DNA of 63,010 nt from a virus: positions 1 to 63,010 of the IMG/VR virus record IMGVR_UViG_3300025301_000010; one strand, 5' to 3'. Position 1 is the first letter of the stretch. The number at the start of each line of letters is the position of its first letter. The position numbers and the translations under genes were made by a program. A model generated the notes under the pieces. That model was not told the DNA's origin. It worked only from the letters and a program-made list of their open reading frames with translations, and ran no database searches. Shown here piece by piece: positions 2,223 through 33,269 of the stretch.

Positions 2223-2734
2223 GGGCCAAAAATGCCGTTTATCCTAAACATGGCACTATCAAGGGCGTACGTACGTGTACGCGTCAGATCGTGCCGTCTT
2301 GGGCCTTTTTTGGGCGTCTTTTTTTCTGGCGGCCCGCAAAAATGCTGCTTTTTGTGCTGGTCGCGCTCGGCTGGGGTCTTTCTGTCGCTGCCTCACACGT
2401 GGCGGCACATCCGACGCCGTGTACCGTCCAGGTGGTGCGAGTTATCGATGGGGATACGCTGGTCGTGAACGAAATGGTCTTGCTAGGGCCACACATGGTC
2501 CCGTGGATCGGGCCGGTCTCGGTGAGGTTGCTACGGGTTGACACCCCCGAGCGTGGCCAGCCGGATTTCGAGCGGGCGAAAGCGGTCCTTGTCGCGCTGA
2601 CCAGGCGCCCGATTGGCCTGGAAATCTTTAAACGCGATTCTTTCGGCCGTTGGTTGGCCGAGCTATATACCTGTACCGGTGCGGGCCGTAAAAATATCAA
2701 CGATAGGCTGCGGAAAGAGTGGCCCGCGCGATGA
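2219..2734 (+). CDS. Secreted staphylococcal-nuclease-like protein (A copy)
   Basis: Predicted calcium-dependent SNase-fold nuclease cutting DNA or RNA. The catalytic set of the family is visible: VIDGDT (calcium-binding Asp), RLLRVDTPERG (Arg, Asp, Thr, Glu) and DSFGRWLAEL (second Arg). A hydrophobic stretch before it (LLFVLVALGWGLSVAAS) looks like a signal peptide or anchor, so the product is likely exported. The ATG at 2219 overlaps the terminase stop (ATGA); an internal ATG at 2342 would begin directly at the signal peptide but lacks a clear ribosome binding site. A homologue lies in the right arm at 60190-60585. Role inferred: degradation of DNA outside the cytoplasm or on lysis; a packaging-linked role cannot be excluded. 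Confidence 0.8.
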   Translation: MRAKNAVYPKHGTIKGVRTCTRQIVPSWAFFGRLFFWRPAKMLLFVLVALGWGLSVAASHVAAHPTPCTVQVVRVIDGDTLVVNEMVLLGPHMVPWIGPVSVRLLRVDTPERGQPDFERAKAVLVALTRRPIGLEIFKRDSFGRWLAELYTCTGAGRKNINDRLRKEWPAR

Positions 2735-2949
2735 CGCGGGGCGGACGTAGCGCGCGGGTATTGGCGGCAATCACGCGGGCGCTAGAGGGGCAGCGCCCGC
2801 AGCTCGACCGTATGCGCGATGTGAGACAGGTCCGAGTGGTGGTCCGCCTATTACCCGACCAACGTGTGCGCGAGGTGCTTGTGAGCGCGGAGACGACGAC
2901 GGACATGTTGCAAGAGAGGGACGGAAGTGGGTATACTGATGGGGCTTGA
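2731..2949 (+). CDS. Small basic protein of unknown function
   Basis: 72 residues, arginine-rich (for example RGGRSAR, DRMRDVRQVRVVVRLL). I do not recognise the family. The ATG at 2731 overlaps the stop of the nuclease gene as ATGA, which suggests translational coupling and supports it being real. No membrane segment or cysteine motif. Position between terminase and portal is common for small accessory genes. Confidence 0.5.
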   Translation: MTRGGRSARVLAAITRALEGQRPQLDRMRDVRQVRVVVRLLPDQRVREVLVSAETTTDMLQERDGSGYTDGA

Positions 2950-3111
2950 TACCTCGCCGTGTCAGGGGGTATCGAGTACGCGCGGGCAGCCTTCGCCGTT
3001 TTGGCGAGCGTAGCCCACGCGGTTGACATATAGCGGCGGGCTACGCGCCCGCCGTGGCGTTACCACACGCCAGACGATAAAAACGGCGAGAGTAAGTAGC
3101 CGCAACAGGTA
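2950..3111 (+). other. Gap between packaging and head genes with a strong hairpin
   Basis: This 162-base stretch has no credible gene. It contains a perfect 8-bp GC-only stem with a 5-base loop at 3034-3054 (cggcgggc / gcccgccg) and a weaker inverted repeat around 2948-2973 (gatacc / ggtatc). Neither hairpin is followed by a T-run, so neither is a typical intrinsic terminator. An RNA-processing or pausing element is possible. Confidence 0.45.
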
Positions 3112-4422
3112 ATGACTGTTTGCGGCTTTTTTGCGTGCAAAATGGGCTGGATACAAAAAATACTAGGAACCGTACGGGCCGGATCTCCGAGTCCGATTGA
3201 TGATTTTTGGTATCGCCCGGCACAGCTGGGGACGGCGGGTCAGACCGTGACGGCTGACACCGCGCTCCAGTCGTCGGCGGTGCTGGCGTGTGTGGTTTTG
3301 CTATCTGAGACGGTCGCAAGTTTGCCGCTGCCGATTTACCGGCGACAGCCGGACGGCGGGAAGGCGCGCGAACCGGGCCATCCGTTAGCCGATATTTTAA
3401 GTCGACGCCCTAATACATATATGAGTGCGTTTGAGCTGCGTCAGCTAATGATGCAACACCTTCTGTTACGGGGCAACGCGTATGCGGTGATCGTTCCTGG
3501 CGCGCGCGGCTCGGTCGACCAGCTGATACCGCTCGCGCCGGACCGGATGACCGTGACAGGTAGCGACGAAGGCTTAGTGTATACGTACCGCGACAGCGCG
3601 GGGACTGACCTCACCTACACGCAAGGTGAAATTTTTCACCTGCGGGGGCCGATGCTGTCTGACGGTGGGATGGTGGGGCTGTCGGTGATCGACTATGCGC
3701 GCGAGACAATTGGCGGGGCGCTAGCGGCCCAGGCGTACGGAAATCGCTTCTATCAAAACGACGCGCGGCCAGGTGTGGTCTTGACGCATCCTGGGCAGCT
3801 CGGCGCCGAGCCGCAGCAACGGCTGAAGGAAGGGTGGCAAAAAGCGCACGGCGGTAACCATCAGCACGGGGTCGCGATCTTGGAAGAGGGGATGGAGGTC
3901 AAGACCCTATCGGTGACGCCGGAACAGGCTCAGTTTTTAGGGTCGCGACAGTATGCCGTCATCGACATCGCGCGTCTTTTTCGCGTCCCGCCCCATCTCA
4001 TCCAGTCGCTCGAAAATGCGACGTTTTCGAATATCGAACACCAAGGTTTAGACTTTCTTACCCACACGCTGCGCCCGTGGCTCGTGCGGTGGGAACAGGC
4101 GATCAACCAACAGTTGATGGTCGCGCCCGATACTTTTTTTGCGGAACATGCGGTTGAAGGGTTATTACGCGGCGACACGAAGGCTCGGTATGACAGCTAT
4201 GCTATCGCGCGCCAGTGGGGTTGGCTTTCTGTTAACGACATTCGGCGATTAGAAAATTTAAATCCAATTGACGGCGGTGACACTTATTTGCAGCCGCTCA
4301 ACATGCAGGACACCGCCACGTCGTCAGCCGCTCCCGTAGGGGATGCGCTGGTCGTGCCGGGACGCGCATTGTCGGCGGAACCGAAGGCCGGGCAAAGGGA
4401 AAATGATGGGACATTACATTGA
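3112..4422 (+). CDS. Portal protein, HK97 gp3 family
   Basis: Forms the dodecameric ring at the unique capsid vertex through which DNA enters and leaves. The N-terminal part carries the family pattern with ALQSSAVLACVVLLSETVASLP and HPLADILSRRPN, then the MQHLLLRGNAYAVIV helix-strand segment. About 436 residues fits the family. ATG at 3112 and ATG at 3142 (giving MGWIQKILG, a usual portal beginning) are both possible; neither has a good ribosome binding site. It overlaps the protease gene by about 17 bases. The right-arm portal (58230-59696) is of a different family. Confidence 0.93.
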   Translation: MTVCGFFACKMGWIQKILGTVRAGSPSPIDDFWYRPAQLGTAGQTVTADTALQSSAVLACVVLLSETVASLPLPIYRRQPDGGKAREPGHPLADILSRRPNTYMSAFELRQLMMQHLLLRGNAYAVIVPGARGSVDQLIPLAPDRMTVTGSDEGLVYTYRDSAGTDLTYTQGEIFHLRGPMLSDGGMVGLSVIDYARETIGGALAAQAYGNRFYQNDARPGVVLTHPGQLGAEPQQRLKEGWQKAHGGNHQHGVAILEEGMEVKTLSVTPEQAQFLGSRQYAVIDIARLFRVPPHLIQSLENATFSNIEHQGLDFLTHTLRPWLVRWEQAINQQLMVAPDTFFAEHAVEGLLRGDTKARYDSYAIARQWGWLSVNDIRRLENLNPIDGGDTYLQPLNMQDTATSSAAPVGDALVVPGRALSAEPKAGQRENDGTLH

Positions 4423-24375: not shown

Positions 24376-25062
24376 ATGAAGTGGGACGAATTCACTCGGA
24401 CATTAAAAGTTCACCAAAAGTACCACATCGGCGGTCAGCAGGTGCCGTCCGTCACAACAGTTTTGCAAAATATCGGGTGGAAGACGGCTGGCTTGCTACG
24501 GTGGGCCGAGCGGATACACGCGGAAGACCGCGACCAAAACCAAGAACGGGACGCGGCTGCCGCCGTAGGGGCCACTGCGCATTATTTGGTGCAATGCTGG
24601 GTCAATGAGACGGAGCCTGACCTATCGAGGGTCGCGCCGATCCATGCGGAATTCGCGATGCAGGCTTATGCCAACTTCCAGCGGTGGGTGGGGCAAACCG
24701 AGGTGCAGCCGATAGCATCCGAGGTTAAAGTCTTGTCGGCCCAGTATCGCTATGGTGGGACCGCGGACCTGATATGTCAGATCGACGGCGTGCGGACGCT
24801 CGTCGACCTGAAAACGTCCGGCGGGGATACCGTGTACGCCGAAAGCAAAATCCAAGTGGCCGCCTATGCTCTCGCCTACAACGAGGAGCACGACGACGCG
24901 CCGGTTCGACGTCTGTGTGTGCTACAGATGGGCCGCGAGACGGGCGCCTGCGTCGCCCACTTTTTGTCGCCGGAGGAGTGGGCCGCCGGACAAGACGCGT
25001 TCCTGCGCGCGCGAGACTTGCACGAGCTACGCAAGACCCTCAACAAGAAGGCCCGCCGGTGA
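24376..25062 (+). CDS. PD-(D/E)XK nuclease (RecB/Cas4-like)
   Basis: 228 residues with gaggaggagg before the ATG. It shows the RecB-type order: a histidine (TAHYLVQCW), the aspartate in YRYGGTADLICQI (about residue 133), the D-x-K pair in LVDLKTSGG and the glutamine/tyrosine motif QVAAYALAY. That is a complete active site for a restriction-fold DNA exonuclease. It is coupled to the primase gene by a 4-base overlap, so a role in replication or recombination of module A is likely. Confidence 0.82.
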   Translation: MKWDEFTRTLKVHQKYHIGGQQVPSVTTVLQNIGWKTAGLLRWAERIHAEDRDQNQERDAAAAVGATAHYLVQCWVNETEPDLSRVAPIHAEFAMQAYANFQRWVGQTEVQPIASEVKVLSAQYRYGGTADLICQIDGVRTLVDLKTSGGDTVYAESKIQVAAYALAYNEEHDDAPVRRLCVLQMGRETGACVAHFLSPEEWAAGQDAFLRARDLHELRKTLNKKARR

Positions 25063-27224
25063 CGCCGGAGCGGTTTTTGGGGCTTGTGCGAGACCACGTC
25101 CCAGGGCTGACCGCGACAAAAAAAGAGGGTGAATATCTTGGCACGGTGCCGTGGCGGCCGGACACGCATCCTTCCTTAGCCGTAAATGTTACTAAAATGT
25201 GTTGGGTTGATCGCGGCACGCAAGACGCCGGTGGCTGGCTCAAATTTTGCGAGCGCGTCGGCGTGTCCGCTGATGATCTGCGCCGCGATGATAACTCGCA
25301 ACCGCAACCGCAACCGCAACCGCAACCGCGCACCGCGAGGGATGATCTCGACAAACTCCTTACCGACCGTAAAAAGCAGGGAGAGGCGGGGCTTCTTCCA
25401 AAGCCGCAACCGCGGCGGAATGGGAACCTGCCAGGGGCGACGATCGTCGAGACCTACGACTACACCGACGCGGCGGGGGCGCTGGTGCATCAGGTCGTGC
25501 GCCTGGAGCCCAAAACGTTCAGGCAGCGGCAATCCGATGGGAACGGGGGTTGGCTGTGGCATGCGCGCGGAGTCGAAACAGTCCCCTATCGACTGCCCGA
25601 GCTGTTAGACGCGGACAGGGTCTACATATGCGAGGGCGAGAAAGATTGCGACCTATTGCACGATCTCGGGTTCGCTGCCACTACGAACCCGATGGGCGCG
25701 GGCAAATGGCCGGAGCATTTCGCGCCGCATTTCCTGGACAAAGAAGTGGTATGTTTGCCAGATAACGACAGCCCAGGGCGTGCCCATATGCAGCAGGTCG
25801 CGGCCGCGCTCGAGCCGGTCGCACGTCGCGTGGTAGTGTGTACGCTACCGGGGCTTGCAGAGAAAGGGGACGTCGCTGACTTTTTGACCTCATACGGCGA
25901 AGAGGAGTTGCGCGAACATGTTGCGCTCGTGCTCGCGTATACGCCCACGGTAACGGTTGAAGCCGCGCCCCCGACGGGGCCGCCGGACTTGCTATGTCCT
26001 GACACAGTATGGTCTGGGCCATACTATAGCGCTGTAGCCGATACGCTCGGTGTCCGGTCGTGGGGGGTCTGGCTAGGGGCAACCGTTGCGGCTAGCGCCT
26101 GGCTCGGTCGCGCGGTGCGCACGCTATACCACGGGCCGCTACATTGTAACGTGTTTGGCCTGCTGGTGAGTGGGACCGGCGCAGGCAAATCTATTTGCAC
26201 AGAGACAGCGCGGGCGTTGCTCCCCCCAACGGTTCGGGCCGGAGACTCCCCACAGTCAGGCCAAGCGCTCGGCAACCTCATCGCGGACGTGGAGCGTGAC
26301 GGCGGCGAGATTATCGTAACACCGCAACCGGCGACGATGATCTGTGAAGAGTGGTCTAAACTAGCCCGACTCGGGAAAATGTCATACTCACACCTGTTAG
26401 AGGACATTAATAAACTGTATGACTTCCCCGTCGACCTAGAGCTAAACCGCTCCGATCGGGATAAGAAAGGTGGGCGTATCGTGTATCCGAACCCGGAGCT
26501 GACGATCTGCGCGACGACAACGACAGGACTGTTCCGCGAGGAGACAGACCGGCGGTTCATTCAGGGCGGGTTTATCAATCGTTTTTTGATTTTGCCGGGA
26601 GAGCAGCGGCGGTGGGCCTTCCACGATACGGGCCGGGCGTCGATGGACTATGCAAGGCTACCACCGATCCAACAGGCACTCGGGCCGCCGCCGGTCTGGC
26701 AGAGCCGAACGTCGATCTGGGCACACTATACACCCGACGCGGCCGAACGGCTGGTGGAATGGGGCAAGCGCTTCGAGGCCGAGATAATGAACGCCGTAGA
26801 CCAGCCGCCGGAGCTGGACGCATACAAACGCCTGCACGTCTATGCGCATAAGCTGTCGATGCTGTACGCGGCGCTCGACAAGCGGGATACGATAACCGTC
26901 GCCGACGTAGAATGCGCCGTGAGCGTGGTAGATACCTCCTGGCTGTGGTTGGATTTTTTGCTCGAAGATGTGGGCGTCCCAGAGCCGCCGTGGGTCGTAT
27001 ACGAAATGGAGCTCGCGGCAAAAGTGCGCCACAAGGTGGTGTCGCGTCCCGGCGAGTACACCCGGCGCGAGCTAAAAAAGCGCATACGGGGCGACAGCAA
27101 AAAGATCGGCCAAATTATAGAAACGCTCATCGAGGAGCACGACCTCATAGAAGACGTCAACCCTGCGCGCGGACATGCACTGCGCTTATACCCCCCGAGC
27201 GAGGGGTCAGCTGACAGGAGCTAG
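25059..27224 (+). CDS. Primase-helicase-like protein (Toprim + DUF3987)
   Basis: 721 residues from GTG 25059, overlapping the nuclease stop (GTGA). The N-terminus (residues 1-70) looks like a degenerate CHC2 primase finger without the cysteines. A QP repeat (81-90) is a linker. Toprim follows: the glutamate in CEGEKD near 192 and the D-x-D type motif in CLPDNDSPGR near 235. Then a RecA-like DUF3987 ATPase with Walker A SGTGAGKS at 371-378. Likely primes and unwinds DNA for module A. The second replication set from 28536 on uses DnaB instead. Confidence 0.85.
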   Translation: MTPERFLGLVRDHVPGLTATKKEGEYLGTVPWRPDTHPSLAVNVTKMCWVDRGTQDAGGWLKFCERVGVSADDLRRDDNSQPQPQPQPQPRTARDDLDKLLTDRKKQGEAGLLPKPQPRRNGNLPGATIVETYDYTDAAGALVHQVVRLEPKTFRQRQSDGNGGWLWHARGVETVPYRLPELLDADRVYICEGEKDCDLLHDLGFAATTNPMGAGKWPEHFAPHFLDKEVVCLPDNDSPGRAHMQQVAAALEPVARRVVVCTLPGLAEKGDVADFLTSYGEEELREHVALVLAYTPTVTVEAAPPTGPPDLLCPDTVWSGPYYSAVADTLGVRSWGVWLGATVAASAWLGRAVRTLYHGPLHCNVFGLLVSGTGAGKSICTETARALLPPTVRAGDSPQSGQALGNLIADVERDGGEIIVTPQPATMICEEWSKLARLGKMSYSHLLEDINKLYDFPVDLELNRSDRDKKGGRIVYPNPELTICATTTTGLFREETDRRFIQGGFINRFLILPGEQRRWAFHDTGRASMDYARLPPIQQALGPPPVWQSRTSIWAHYTPDAAERLVEWGKRFEAEIMNAVDQPPELDAYKRLHVYAHKLSMLYAALDKRDTITVADVECAVSVVDTSWLWLDFLLEDVGVPEPPWVVYEMELAAKVRHKVVSRPGEYTRRELKKRIRGDSKKIGQIIETLIEEHDLIEDVNPARGHALRLYPPSEGSADRS
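25299..25328 (+). repeat. Five tandem copies of CAACCG
   Basis: A 30-base hexanucleotide run encoding the Gln-Pro linker between the N-terminal part and the Toprim domain. Such repeats change length readily in frame. A related AACCGC piece recurs near 25408. Confidence 0.9.
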
Positions 27225-27236
27225 AGGGCAGCTCGG

Positions 27237-28298
27237 GTGAGAGAACTGTCCCTATTTTCAGGCGTAGGAGGCGGCCTCTTAGGGACGGGAACGTTAGGGT
27301 GGAGGTGTATTGGATATGTCGAAAACAACACGTATTGCCAGCGCATCCTCGGACAGCGGATCGCCGACGGCATCCTCGACGCCGCTCCGATCTTTGGCGA
27401 TATCCGAACATTCAATAGTGACGGGTACGCCGCGAGCTATACGGGCCTGGTTGATGTCGTCAGTGCAGGTTTCCCCTGCCAACCCTTCTCCACCGCAGGG
27501 CAGCGCAAAGGGGCAACCGACGAACGTAACATGTGGCCGTCCACCAGGGATACCATTCGTCTCGTTCGACCCCGCTACGCATTCTTGGAAAACGTCCCTG
27601 GACTTATTTCCAGCGGATATTTTGACACGATCCTCCGTGACCTGGCCGAAATCCGGTATGATGCACGATGGACAGTGCTGGGAGCGCACCATGTTGGTGC
27701 CCCGCATAAGCGGAACCGGCTCTGGATACTCGCTACCGACGCCGAGTGCGGTGAGCTACGGCACCAATCAGGGCGGGGGCATGGGGCGGACAGGGCCGCT
27801 GCGTCTCTGGACACGATGGCCCGTCAGAACATGTGGCCGACGCCAAGCGGTCACCGCCGGGGGGGCGGAAGCCACTCCACCCAGCCGTCTTCGGCCCAGC
27901 GGTCACAAGCGGCAGATCACCCTGCAGGATGCGGTGCGGTGGCCGAGCCCCAAGGCCAGCGACTCCAAGGGGACGGGACCAGTTGGCAGCAAGAGCCAAA
28001 TACACGACAACCGAAAAAAGAATCTGAGAGGCATAACGGCTCTATGGGCGACACCGAACACGGGCGATGCGACCAGGGGCTCGCCGGAGACAGCCGACGA
28101 CAAGAGAGCGAGAGGGGCGCATACCGGGGAAAGCCTAATAGACCAAACTGGTGGGCAACTGAACCCGCCGTGGGTCGAGTGGCTCATGGGGTGGCCGCTC
28201 GGGTGGACCGACTTAAAGCCCTTGGGAATGGACAAGTACCGGCAGTGGCAGCAGCAGCATGGCGTATATTAACCGACATGGAGGACGTAAAGAAATGA
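27237..28298 (+). CDS. C5 cytosine DNA methyltransferase
   Basis: 353 residues, transferring a methyl group to cytosine C5, probably to protect phage DNA from restriction. Motif I is LFSGVGGG (6-13), motif IV PCQPFS (80-85, nucleophile Cys81), motif VI FLENVPG (116-122), motif VIII VGAPHKRNRLW (about 153-163), and motif IX/X VDRLKALGNGQVPAVAAAAW near the end. GTG 27237 is used; agaggg overlapping the upstream stop codon is its likely ribosome site. The region between VIII and X is low in recognisable target-domain features, and nearly the whole gene also encodes another protein in the +1 frame. Its stop overlaps the next start as ATGA. Confidence 0.9.
   Translation: MRELSLFSGVGGGLLGTGTLGWRCIGYVENNTYCQRILGQRIADGILDAAPIFGDIRTFNSDGYAASYTGLVDVVSAGFPCQPFSTAGQRKGATDERNMWPSTRDTIRLVRPRYAFLENVPGLISSGYFDTILRDLAEIRYDARWTVLGAHHVGAPHKRNRLWILATDAECGELRHQSGRGHGADRAAASLDTMARQNMWPTPSGHRRGGGSHSTQPSSAQRSQAADHPAGCGAVAEPQGQRLQGDGTSWQQEPNTRQPKKESERHNGSMGDTEHGRCDQGLAGDSRRQESERGAYRGKPNRPNWWATEPAVGRVAHGVAARVDRLKALGNGQVPAVAAAAWRILTDMEDVKK
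27316..28272 (+). CDS. Nested +1-frame gene inside the methyltransferase gene
   Basis: 318 residues fully inside the methyltransferase gene, offset by +1. It has its own ggagg at 27301-27305, 10 bases before ATG 27316. It is not random: FDPATHSWKTS, VTWPKSGMMHDGQCWE, LVPRISGTGSGYSLPTPSA, RWPSPKASDSKG and LNPPWVEWLMGWPLGWTDLK follow a pattern I know from a separate phage protein family usually annotated as DNA methylase-like or hypothetical, found beside cytosine methyltransferases. Biochemical role unknown. A partner, specificity or regulatory subunit is speculation. Confidence 0.68.
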   Translation: MSKTTRIASASSDSGSPTASSTPLRSLAISEHSIVTGTPRAIRAWLMSSVQVSPANPSPPQGSAKGQPTNVTCGRPPGIPFVSFDPATHSWKTSLDLFPADILTRSSVTWPKSGMMHDGQCWERTMLVPRISGTGSGYSLPTPSAVSYGTNQGGGMGRTGPLRLWTRWPVRTCGRRQAVTAGGAEATPPSRLRPSGHKRQITLQDAVRWPSPKASDSKGTGPVGSKSQIHDNRKKNLRGITALWATPNTGDATRGSPETADDKRARGAHTGESLIDQTGGQLNPPWVEWLMGWPLGWTDLKPLGMDKYRQWQQQHGVY

Positions 28299-31521: not shown

Positions 31522-32815
31522 CCACGAAGCTGCCCTCCTCTCGTGCATCCTGATGGACAACACGGTCCTGGATGCGTGCCGCACGCAAGTCGAACCCGAT
31601 GATTTCGGCTATCTACCGCATCGTAAAATATGGGAGTCGATGTGTCAGTTAGGCGACCAACGCGATGCTATCGATCTGGTGACCGTCGAGCATGGGCTCC
31701 GCACGGCACGAGAGTTAGACAGCATTGGCGGGGTCACCTATCTACTCACCGTACAGGAGGCCGTCCCGAGTGCGGCTAATTACGGGGATTACCTCAAGCT
31801 CACACTGGAAGACGCGAAGCGCAGAGCGGCAGATCGTCAGGCGCAGAAAGTGCTGGAAGTCGCAGATGGAGATCGAAAACTCGATGCGCTGGGGGCGATT
31901 GAGGACATTGTCCGAGACCGGGCGACTATCGGCCGTCCAACCTACTGGACGCTGGAACAGTCGATTCGTGAGACGTTAGAGAAAGTCGATGCGCTTGATG
32001 GCCATACCGGAGAGCTGACCGGACTCCCGTCCGGACTGATTGATCTGGATCGCATTACCTGCGGATTTCAGGATTCCGAGCTCGTTGTGATTGCTGCGCG
32101 ACCAGGGCTCGGGAAGACATCACTCGCCTTACAAATCGCGATACGGACCGCACGCGAGACGGGGAAACGGGTCGCCTTTTTCTCCTTGGAAATGGCACGG
32201 GCAGCGATTACACAACGCATCCTCTGCAGTGATGCCCGTATTGACTCGAACGTGGTTCGGGCTGGGCGCATGAATGCGGAAGAGCGTAATCGTCTAGCAG
32301 AATCCGCCCTGCGGAATTCACCGCTCCCCGTGGTCATTGAAGACCGGAGTGATCTCACCCTCGACAATATCCGCGCCATGGCGCGATCACTGACACGAGA
32401 AAAAGAGGTGTCGTTAATCGTGATCGACTACCTCCAACTGATGCGCGGTCAGCGGCGAGATGGGCGGCAACAAGAAATTGCAGAGATTTCGCGTGGTCTG
32501 AAGGGCCTCGCAAAAGAACTCGATATTCCCATTGTCGCTCTCGCGCAGTTGAACCGCCAGAGCGAATTGCGGACAGATAAACGGCCGGTATTGGCGGATC
32601 TACGTGAGTCTGGCCAGATCGAGCAGGATGCGGATCTCGTGATTTTTTTATATCGCGATGAGATGGTCAATCCTGACAGTCTGGACACTGGTATCGCAGA
32701 GTTGATCGTTGCCAAACATCGCAACGGCCCAACCGGATCAGTCAAAGTCCGATTCACTCCGGTGTGGACACGATTTGATAATCTCGCCGCCGTAGAGGAG
32801 ATGGACTATGCCTAA
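31508..32815 (+). CDS. dnaB: Replicative DNA helicase DnaB
   Basis: 435 residues. ATG 31508 has ggag 8 bases before it and overlaps the initiator gene. The N-terminal helical domain shows EAALLSCILMDNTVLDA and DFGYLPHRKIWE. The RecA-like domain has Walker A AARPGLGKTS (about 197-206) and Walker B LIVIDYLQLM near 308, followed by LAQLNRQSELR and ESGQIEQDAD. It is full length for DnaB and unwinds DNA 5' to 3' at the fork. Confidence 0.96.
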   Translation: METYSHEAALLSCILMDNTVLDACRTQVEPDDFGYLPHRKIWESMCQLGDQRDAIDLVTVEHGLRTARELDSIGGVTYLLTVQEAVPSAANYGDYLKLTLEDAKRRAADRQAQKVLEVADGDRKLDALGAIEDIVRDRATIGRPTYWTLEQSIRETLEKVDALDGHTGELTGLPSGLIDLDRITCGFQDSELVVIAARPGLGKTSLALQIAIRTARETGKRVAFFSLEMARAAITQRILCSDARIDSNVVRAGRMNAEERNRLAESALRNSPLPVVIEDRSDLTLDNIRAMARSLTREKEVSLIVIDYLQLMRGQRRDGRQQEIAEISRGLKGLAKELDIPIVALAQLNRQSELRTDKRPVLADLRESGQIEQDADLVIFLYRDEMVNPDSLDTGIAELIVAKHRNGPTGSVKVRFTPVWTRFDNLAAVEEMDYA

Positions 32816-33269
32816 TGAGGACGGTCACTTGCGTCTCAAGCCTATCACGCTGAGAGAAGCTAGTGCTTACGTTAAGGCTTATCACCGACACCATAAACCC
32901 TCTATCGGACATAAATTCTCTATTGGAGTGGTGGATGGAACTTCTTTGGAGGGTGTAATTACCGTAGGTCGTCCCGTAGCCCGTAATCTAGACAATGGCT
33001 GGACAGCAGAAGCTACCCGCTGCTGTACTAATGGACGGCGCAACGCCGCCTCTATGTTGTATGGTGCAGCGCGTCGTGCCGCTAAGGCGATGGGCTATAG
33101 ACTTATTATCACCTACACGCTGGCGTCAGAGCCAGGCACCTCGCTGAAAGCAGCGGGATGGCAATCAACGCCCCTGAAAATGAGAGGGGAATGGGATTGC
33201 CCTAGTCGCCCTCGACAGATTGGATTGTTTCCGGCTGAATCTAAGATCAGATGGGAAAGTATACTATGA
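32808..33269 (+). CDS. XF1762-like protein (GNAT-like fold)
   Basis: 153 residues, gaggag site before ATG 32808, overlapping dnaB by 8 bases. It shows LREASAYVKAYHRHHKPSIGH, then VITVGRPVARNLDNGWTAE and a C-terminal YRLIITYTLASEPGTSLKAAGW, the last with the acetyl-CoA-type glycine turn. The family is common in phage genomes and of unknown substrate. It ends overlapping the next start as ATGA. Confidence 0.8.
   Translation: MPNEDGHLRLKPITLREASAYVKAYHRHHKPSIGHKFSIGVVDGTSLEGVITVGRPVARNLDNGWTAEATRCCTNGRRNAASMLYGAARRAAKAMGYRLIITYTLASEPGTSLKAAGWQSTPLKMRGEWDCPSRPRQIGLFPAESKIRWESIL

Follow-up and report, generated by a model that had tools for sequence, protein, structure and literature searches.

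At positions 27237-28298 of the DNA studied here, the 63,010 nucleotides of IMG/VR virus record IMGVR_UViG_3300025301_000010 (by "the window" we mean this whole stretch), one gene region is truly read in two frames of the same strand. Both frames, which we call alpha (frame 0) and beta (the +1 frame), are coding and under selection; beta has a conserved start of its own, and the motifs of a C5-cytosine DNA methyltransferase are split between the two. Our reading, to which we give a probability of about 85%, is that this is a phage-borne two-subunit C5 methyltransferase, whose two subunits are read from one stretch of DNA in different frames and which probably acts against host restriction. Alpha would form the catalytic domain, with the AdoMet site, the PCQ nucleophile, ENV, motif VIII and helix X. 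Beta would be initiated separately on the same mRNA, from its own ribosome binding site, and would supply target recognition and motif IX; alpha and beta would then assemble into one enzyme that shields the DNA of the phage from host restriction by modifying it. The sequence leads us to expect that beta is translated in vivo, that the heterodimer forms and methylates DNA, and that it counters restriction.

Two open frames and their start sites

The +1 frame is free of stops over 27310-28272, and ORF analysis gives ATG 27316 as its best start, from which the frame runs for exactly 957 bases to 28272. This is the extent of double reading that had been proposed in a sequence-only reading of the window, and every motif quoted there was found in the sequence. 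The ribosome binding site that it had assigned to beta was also confirmed: ggaggtg lies 8 nt before ATG 27316, and only 2 nt from the other possible start, TTG 27310. When the alpha gene of the window was resampled synonymously by local codon usage, the +1 frame contained a mean of 6.7 stops and was open in 0 of 200 resamples; across the family, the same resampling gives a mean of 8.4 stops and an open frame in 0.2%.

Three start arrangements are seen. One, that of the window's subfamily, places the beta start about 80 nt into alpha. In the main family, alpha starts with (A/G/T)TG and the beta ATG follows 4 nt later (ATGAATGAG). Among the 142 main-family loci with enough upstream sequence, the beta start is ATG in 127 and GTG in 6, and a stop codon stands directly before it in 118. 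With starts only 4 nt apart and ends that usually lie no more than a few codons from each other, the main-family gene carries two coding frames along its whole length. The Bacteroidota and actinophage branches have an SD-like sequence and an ATG embedded in the alpha codons for (K/R)G..(D/N)(D/E/N)R (RKGxDDR; 61 of 64 distinct genes), and here the first residue of (D/N)(D/E/N) is coded by GAT in 57 of the 64, against a GAT background of 44%.

Six loci (L023, L067, L025, L050, L055 and L079) have the beta ATG and no ATG, GTG or TTG at the usual start of alpha (e.g., TTAAATGAG); their alpha perhaps starts at a TTG two codons on, or upstream. That some family members are without an obvious alpha start codon counts against our main reading.

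Table 1. Features of the dual-coding region, in window coordinates
Feature	Position	Strand	Remarks
Alpha ORF, frame 0	27237-28298	+	GTG 27237 to TGA 28298, 353 aa; predicted catalytic subunit, C5-cytosine DNA methyltransferase motifs I-VIII and X
Shine-Dalgarno-like ggaggtg for beta	27301-27307	+	Within alpha codons; from sequence; same ggaggtg in the related locus L081
Beta ORF, +1 frame	27316-28272	+	ATG start, 957 bases, 318 aa; TRD-like region and motif IX
Alpha motif IV, GFPCQPFSTAG	27468-27500	+	Catalytic Cys
Beta conserved core, FDPATHSWKTS ... VTWPKSGMMHDGQCWE	27550-27684	+	Over alpha motifs VI-VII
Alpha motif VI, FLENVPG	27582-27602	+	Bases common to beta WKTS
Alpha motif VIII, VGAPHKRNRLWI	27693-27728	+	
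Beta TRD-like region	27730-28158	+	Three (L/W)(P/A)(T/S)P repeats; selection on beta; alpha here is a linker predicted to be disordered
Beta motif IX, LNPPWVEWLMGWPLGWTDL	28159-28215	+	Near-invariant across the family; aligns with Smooch gp6
Alpha motif X, RVDRLKALGNGQVP	28200-28241	+	

Partition of the methyltransferase motifs

Alpha matches phrog_363, Pfam PF00145 (DNA_methylase; E 6e-33, confined to residues 1-170) and, with its catalytic domain, the PDB profile of M.HhaI (E 2e-25). In its AF2 model, residues 1-175 are confidently folded, residues 182-331 mostly have a pLDDT <50, and the C-terminal helix of motif X is again confident. The suggestion that one frame has every main motif holds for I, IV (PCQ), VI (ENV), VIII and X, all of which are in alpha, and fails for motif IX and a folded TRD, which motif inspection and AF2 showed to be absent from it. 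The TRD and motif IX, expected within the catalytic chain of a C5-methyltransferase, both sit in beta, and only alpha and beta jointly have them all.

Beta carries the LPTP-repeat, TRD-like region and then motif IX (LNPPWVEWLMGWPLGW). Its LNPPWVEWLMGWPLGWTDL is the counterpart of LHPAFPEWMMGWPAGWVT in Moonbeam gp69, where LHPAFPEWMMGWPAGWVT precedes motif X in a single chain. Beta matches phrog_1008 "DNA methyltransferase" (E 1.6e-28), and its profile matches Smooch gp6, a chain with a TRD-like region, IX and X (hhalign 99%, E 2.4e-18; BLASTP 4e-13). Both alpha and Smooch gp6 match methyltransferase PHROG 116, alpha at profile positions 211-376 and Smooch gp6 downstream of these, at 441-482. 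Against a mixed actinophage alignment, hhalign with the beta profile gave only a short match of 47 columns, because in the actinophages some of the TRD-like region is itself encoded by the +1 frame. Searches of Pfam and NCBIfam with beta gave no significant match, a PDB sequence search with the beta profile gave none, and the AF2 model of beta by itself has a low pLDDT (56); the poor model and the lack of a Pfam or PDB match count against the two-subunit reading.

At the 3' end, two motif pairs had been thought to come from the same bases. Shared bases do exist there, and the picture can be refined: IX in beta is followed by X in alpha, with their cores successive on the DNA and an overlap of only 16 nt between their coding sequences. 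The assignment of beta to a separate phage protein family had to be given up. Because beta has the recognition region and the motif IX that are absent from alpha, it is in all likelihood the other subunit of this methyltransferase, and not an unrelated phage protein.

Selection on the two frames

The stretch of alpha upstream of the beta ATG is an internal control, which also deals with relatedness. In the window's subfamily, whose alpha proteins are about 50% identical, the third bases at conserved residues of alpha agree no more often than by chance before the beta ATG (0.278 vs. 0.268 expected, z 0.5), whereas from this ATG onward the third bases of alpha are strongly constrained (z 8 to 29; 12.8 for 27316-27551). 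At 54 columns, third-base conservation is 0.68 vs. 0.36 expected; the columns under WVEWLMGW are biased by retrieval, and the others are unbiased.

Selection ratios were calculated from 34 disjoint, deduplicated close pairs, with the virtual +1 frame of the flanking genes as the control. For beta, dNN/dNS is 0.58 (0.49-0.68) vs. 0.90 (0.80-1.01) in the control, and dSN/dSS is 0.29 (0.25-0.34) vs. 0.68. In the TRD stretch (0.55-0.85 of the family), beta is constrained (0.45) and alpha is near neutral (0.86, with a CI that includes 1); alpha evolves here as a near-neutral linker, and selection acts on beta. Purifying selection in both frames, the mark of a functional overlap, is thus present, and the proposed conservation of the second frame is supported both by this selection on beta and by the third-base constraint from its ATG onward.

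The signal for beta is mixed in the family's N-terminal third (dNN/dNS about 1, dSN/dSS 0.28). The window and L081 show 32 differences, which are confined to 27237-27551, the first 315 bases of the gene, and fall mostly at alpha third positions; the remaining 747 bases are identical. The N-terminus of beta may therefore be less important, a point that we count against the main reading. The split of the differences at 27551 looks like a recombination junction inside the gene.

Relatives and distribution

A search of IMG/VR with beta gave at least 599 relatives. Among the matches listed, 83 loci have a beta ORF, and in nearly all of these the alpha frame is open across the whole of beta and the third forward frame is broken. 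Homologues with an intact methyltransferase and a broken +1 frame had been named beforehand as the observation to look for against dual coding; at the 76 assessable loci of an independent alpha-motif search, beta is open over >85% of alpha in 74, and the two exceptions have one stop (L131) and an apparent single indel (L159). The L159 indel (locus 2501-3313), a mutation or a sequencing error, fuses the N-terminal half of alpha to the TRD and IX of beta in one frame, with motif X lost. Both frames of an E. coli prophage copy (L089, 1498-2259) are interrupted by a stop at one common position, and this copy is annotated as a pseudogene.

Nesting was found in 69 of the best 80 loci in GTDB genomes, whose record titles include Pseudomonadota, Verrucomicrobia, Planctomycetota, Spirochaetia, and others, several being MAGs. 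The Bacteroidota phage type is nested, with PCQ in alpha, in 26 of 32 cases, and in the actinophage type the +1 frame is open for a median of 167 aa vs. 46 aa for the +2 frame. Three actinophage methyltransferases (L097, L179 and L180) have motif IX in the alpha frame and the TWPKTG/LPTP region in the +1 frame, so the branches do not all switch frame at the same point. Matches number in the hundreds among viral contigs and prophages, and most of those sampled are dual-coded, many of them end to end. Long overlap of two conserved proteins, which had been described as rare, is common in the cytosine methyltransferases of phages and prophages. In most annotated records a single frame is shown (alpha in ABMM1, S9-5, E. 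coli PT62 and Moonbeam; beta in SOVA965; both in Bloom), and because annotation usually keeps only one, a nested pair is easily missed. In the literature that we searched for dual-coded phage methyltransferases we found no description of the wider pattern, which does not prove that none exists.

Alternative explanations

The sequence-only reading as a whole was right about dual coding, the ribosome binding site and conservation of the second frame, and went astray over rarity and over beta, which it took for a protein unrelated to methylation, overprinted on a complete methyltransferase. This last idea draws on the missing Pfam match, the low-confidence fold and the N-terminal extension, without known relative, of many members; we nevertheless think it very unlikely, because alpha is without the TRD and IX, and beta has both and matches the C-terminal chain of a methyltransferase. 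About as unlikely is a single polypeptide made by programmed frameshifting, with I-VIII read in frame 0, a +1 shift for the TRD and IX, and a shift back for X. Such a product would preserve the motif order, since the core of IX (from 28159) precedes that of X (from 28200) on the DNA, but two opposite shifts would be needed, and the coding of IX and X overlaps here; moreover, the start and SD that beta has for itself are conserved in three forms, and constraint on beta is seen well before a shift would make sense (27316-27551, z 12.8).

We find it scarcely credible that the +1 frame codes for nothing and only shadows a conserved methyltransferase. Resampling predicts 8.4 stops and almost never an open frame, the third-base constraint begins at the beta ATG, and beta is constrained where alpha is not, although shadow frames of conserved genes do show weak similarity and the dSN/dSS of the flanking genes is itself below 1. 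The unrelated overprinted protein, the frameshift fusion and the shadow frame were all rejected on the grounds given above, in favor of the two-subunit methyltransferase.

Comparison with known methyltransferases

M.EaeI is, like M.EcoHK31I, a heterodimeric YGGCCR C5-methyltransferase, and the M.EcoHK31I subunits have 309 and 176 aa, with beta nested in alpha in another frame. The larger subunit of M.EcoHK31I has motifs I-VIII and X and the predicted TRD, and the smaller polypeptide has motif IX (PMC3404938). By this published partition the alpha/beta family is alike, with I-VIII and X on the larger and IX on the smaller subunit, and its smaller gene too is nested in the larger in another frame. 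It differs in that selection on the TRD region acts through beta, with alpha close to neutral there, that beta here has 318 aa, or 90% of alpha, with an end-to-end overlap in the main family, and that the pair is phage-borne with no restriction partner seen. In a blastn search of plasmids with the Kluyvera copy, no copy linked to an EcoHK31I/EaeI-like restriction enzyme was recognised. A Bacillus prophage methyltransferase is predicted to share the M.EaeI site (PMC4722110).

In the M.AquI-type split, I-VIII are on alpha, and a TRD-like region and IX are on a second chain (PMC3404938); mycobacteriophage Smooch gp7/gp6 is arranged alike. Unlike in the window, motif X is on the second chain in both, and the Smooch overlap is only about 209 nt. 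Paenibacillus phage Bloom_56/Bloom_57 shares the nested +1-frame beta, with both frames annotated as DNA cytosine methyltransferase, but its beta starts later, at the RKG.(D/E)DR site, and its sequence is distant. M.HhaI and other single-chain C5-methyltransferases have a catalytic domain like that of alpha, but all their motifs and the TRD are in one chain.

Genomic context and significance

Alpha and beta lie among genes for phage replication and recombination (PD-(D/E)XK exonuclease, primase/helicase, YqaJ/RecE-like exonuclease and RecT), and given this company an orphan modification enzyme that guards the phage DNA is the likely role. The PD-(D/E)XK exonuclease ORF (24376-25062) overlaps the start of the primase/helicase ORF (24774-27224), whose Arg-rich N-terminus suggests that its true start is further downstream. 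A second DNA modification gene lies 4.5 kb downstream of the methyltransferase, at 32808-33266, and encodes a Mom-like protein (phrog_1384, E 4e-36).

In dsDNA phages and bacteria, it has seldom been established that two conserved proteins share a long overlap on the same strand; here such an overlap recurs in hundreds of genomes and comes with an internal selection control. We lean, if only slightly, to the view that the cytosine methyltransferases of phages and prophages are, across several phyla, usually coded in two frames, that many "complete" enzymes are one subunit whose partner is unannotated in the +1 frame, and that the long, often end-to-end overlap is maintained by selection for co-inheritance and co-expression. 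If this is true, many phage "DNA methyltransferase" entries would be half-enzymes, a possible reason for expressed proteins without activity and for specificities that have not been assigned. The gene pair would also offer a tractable system for the co-evolution of two subunits that share their bases: constraint acts on both frames in one region and on the recognition subunit alone in another.
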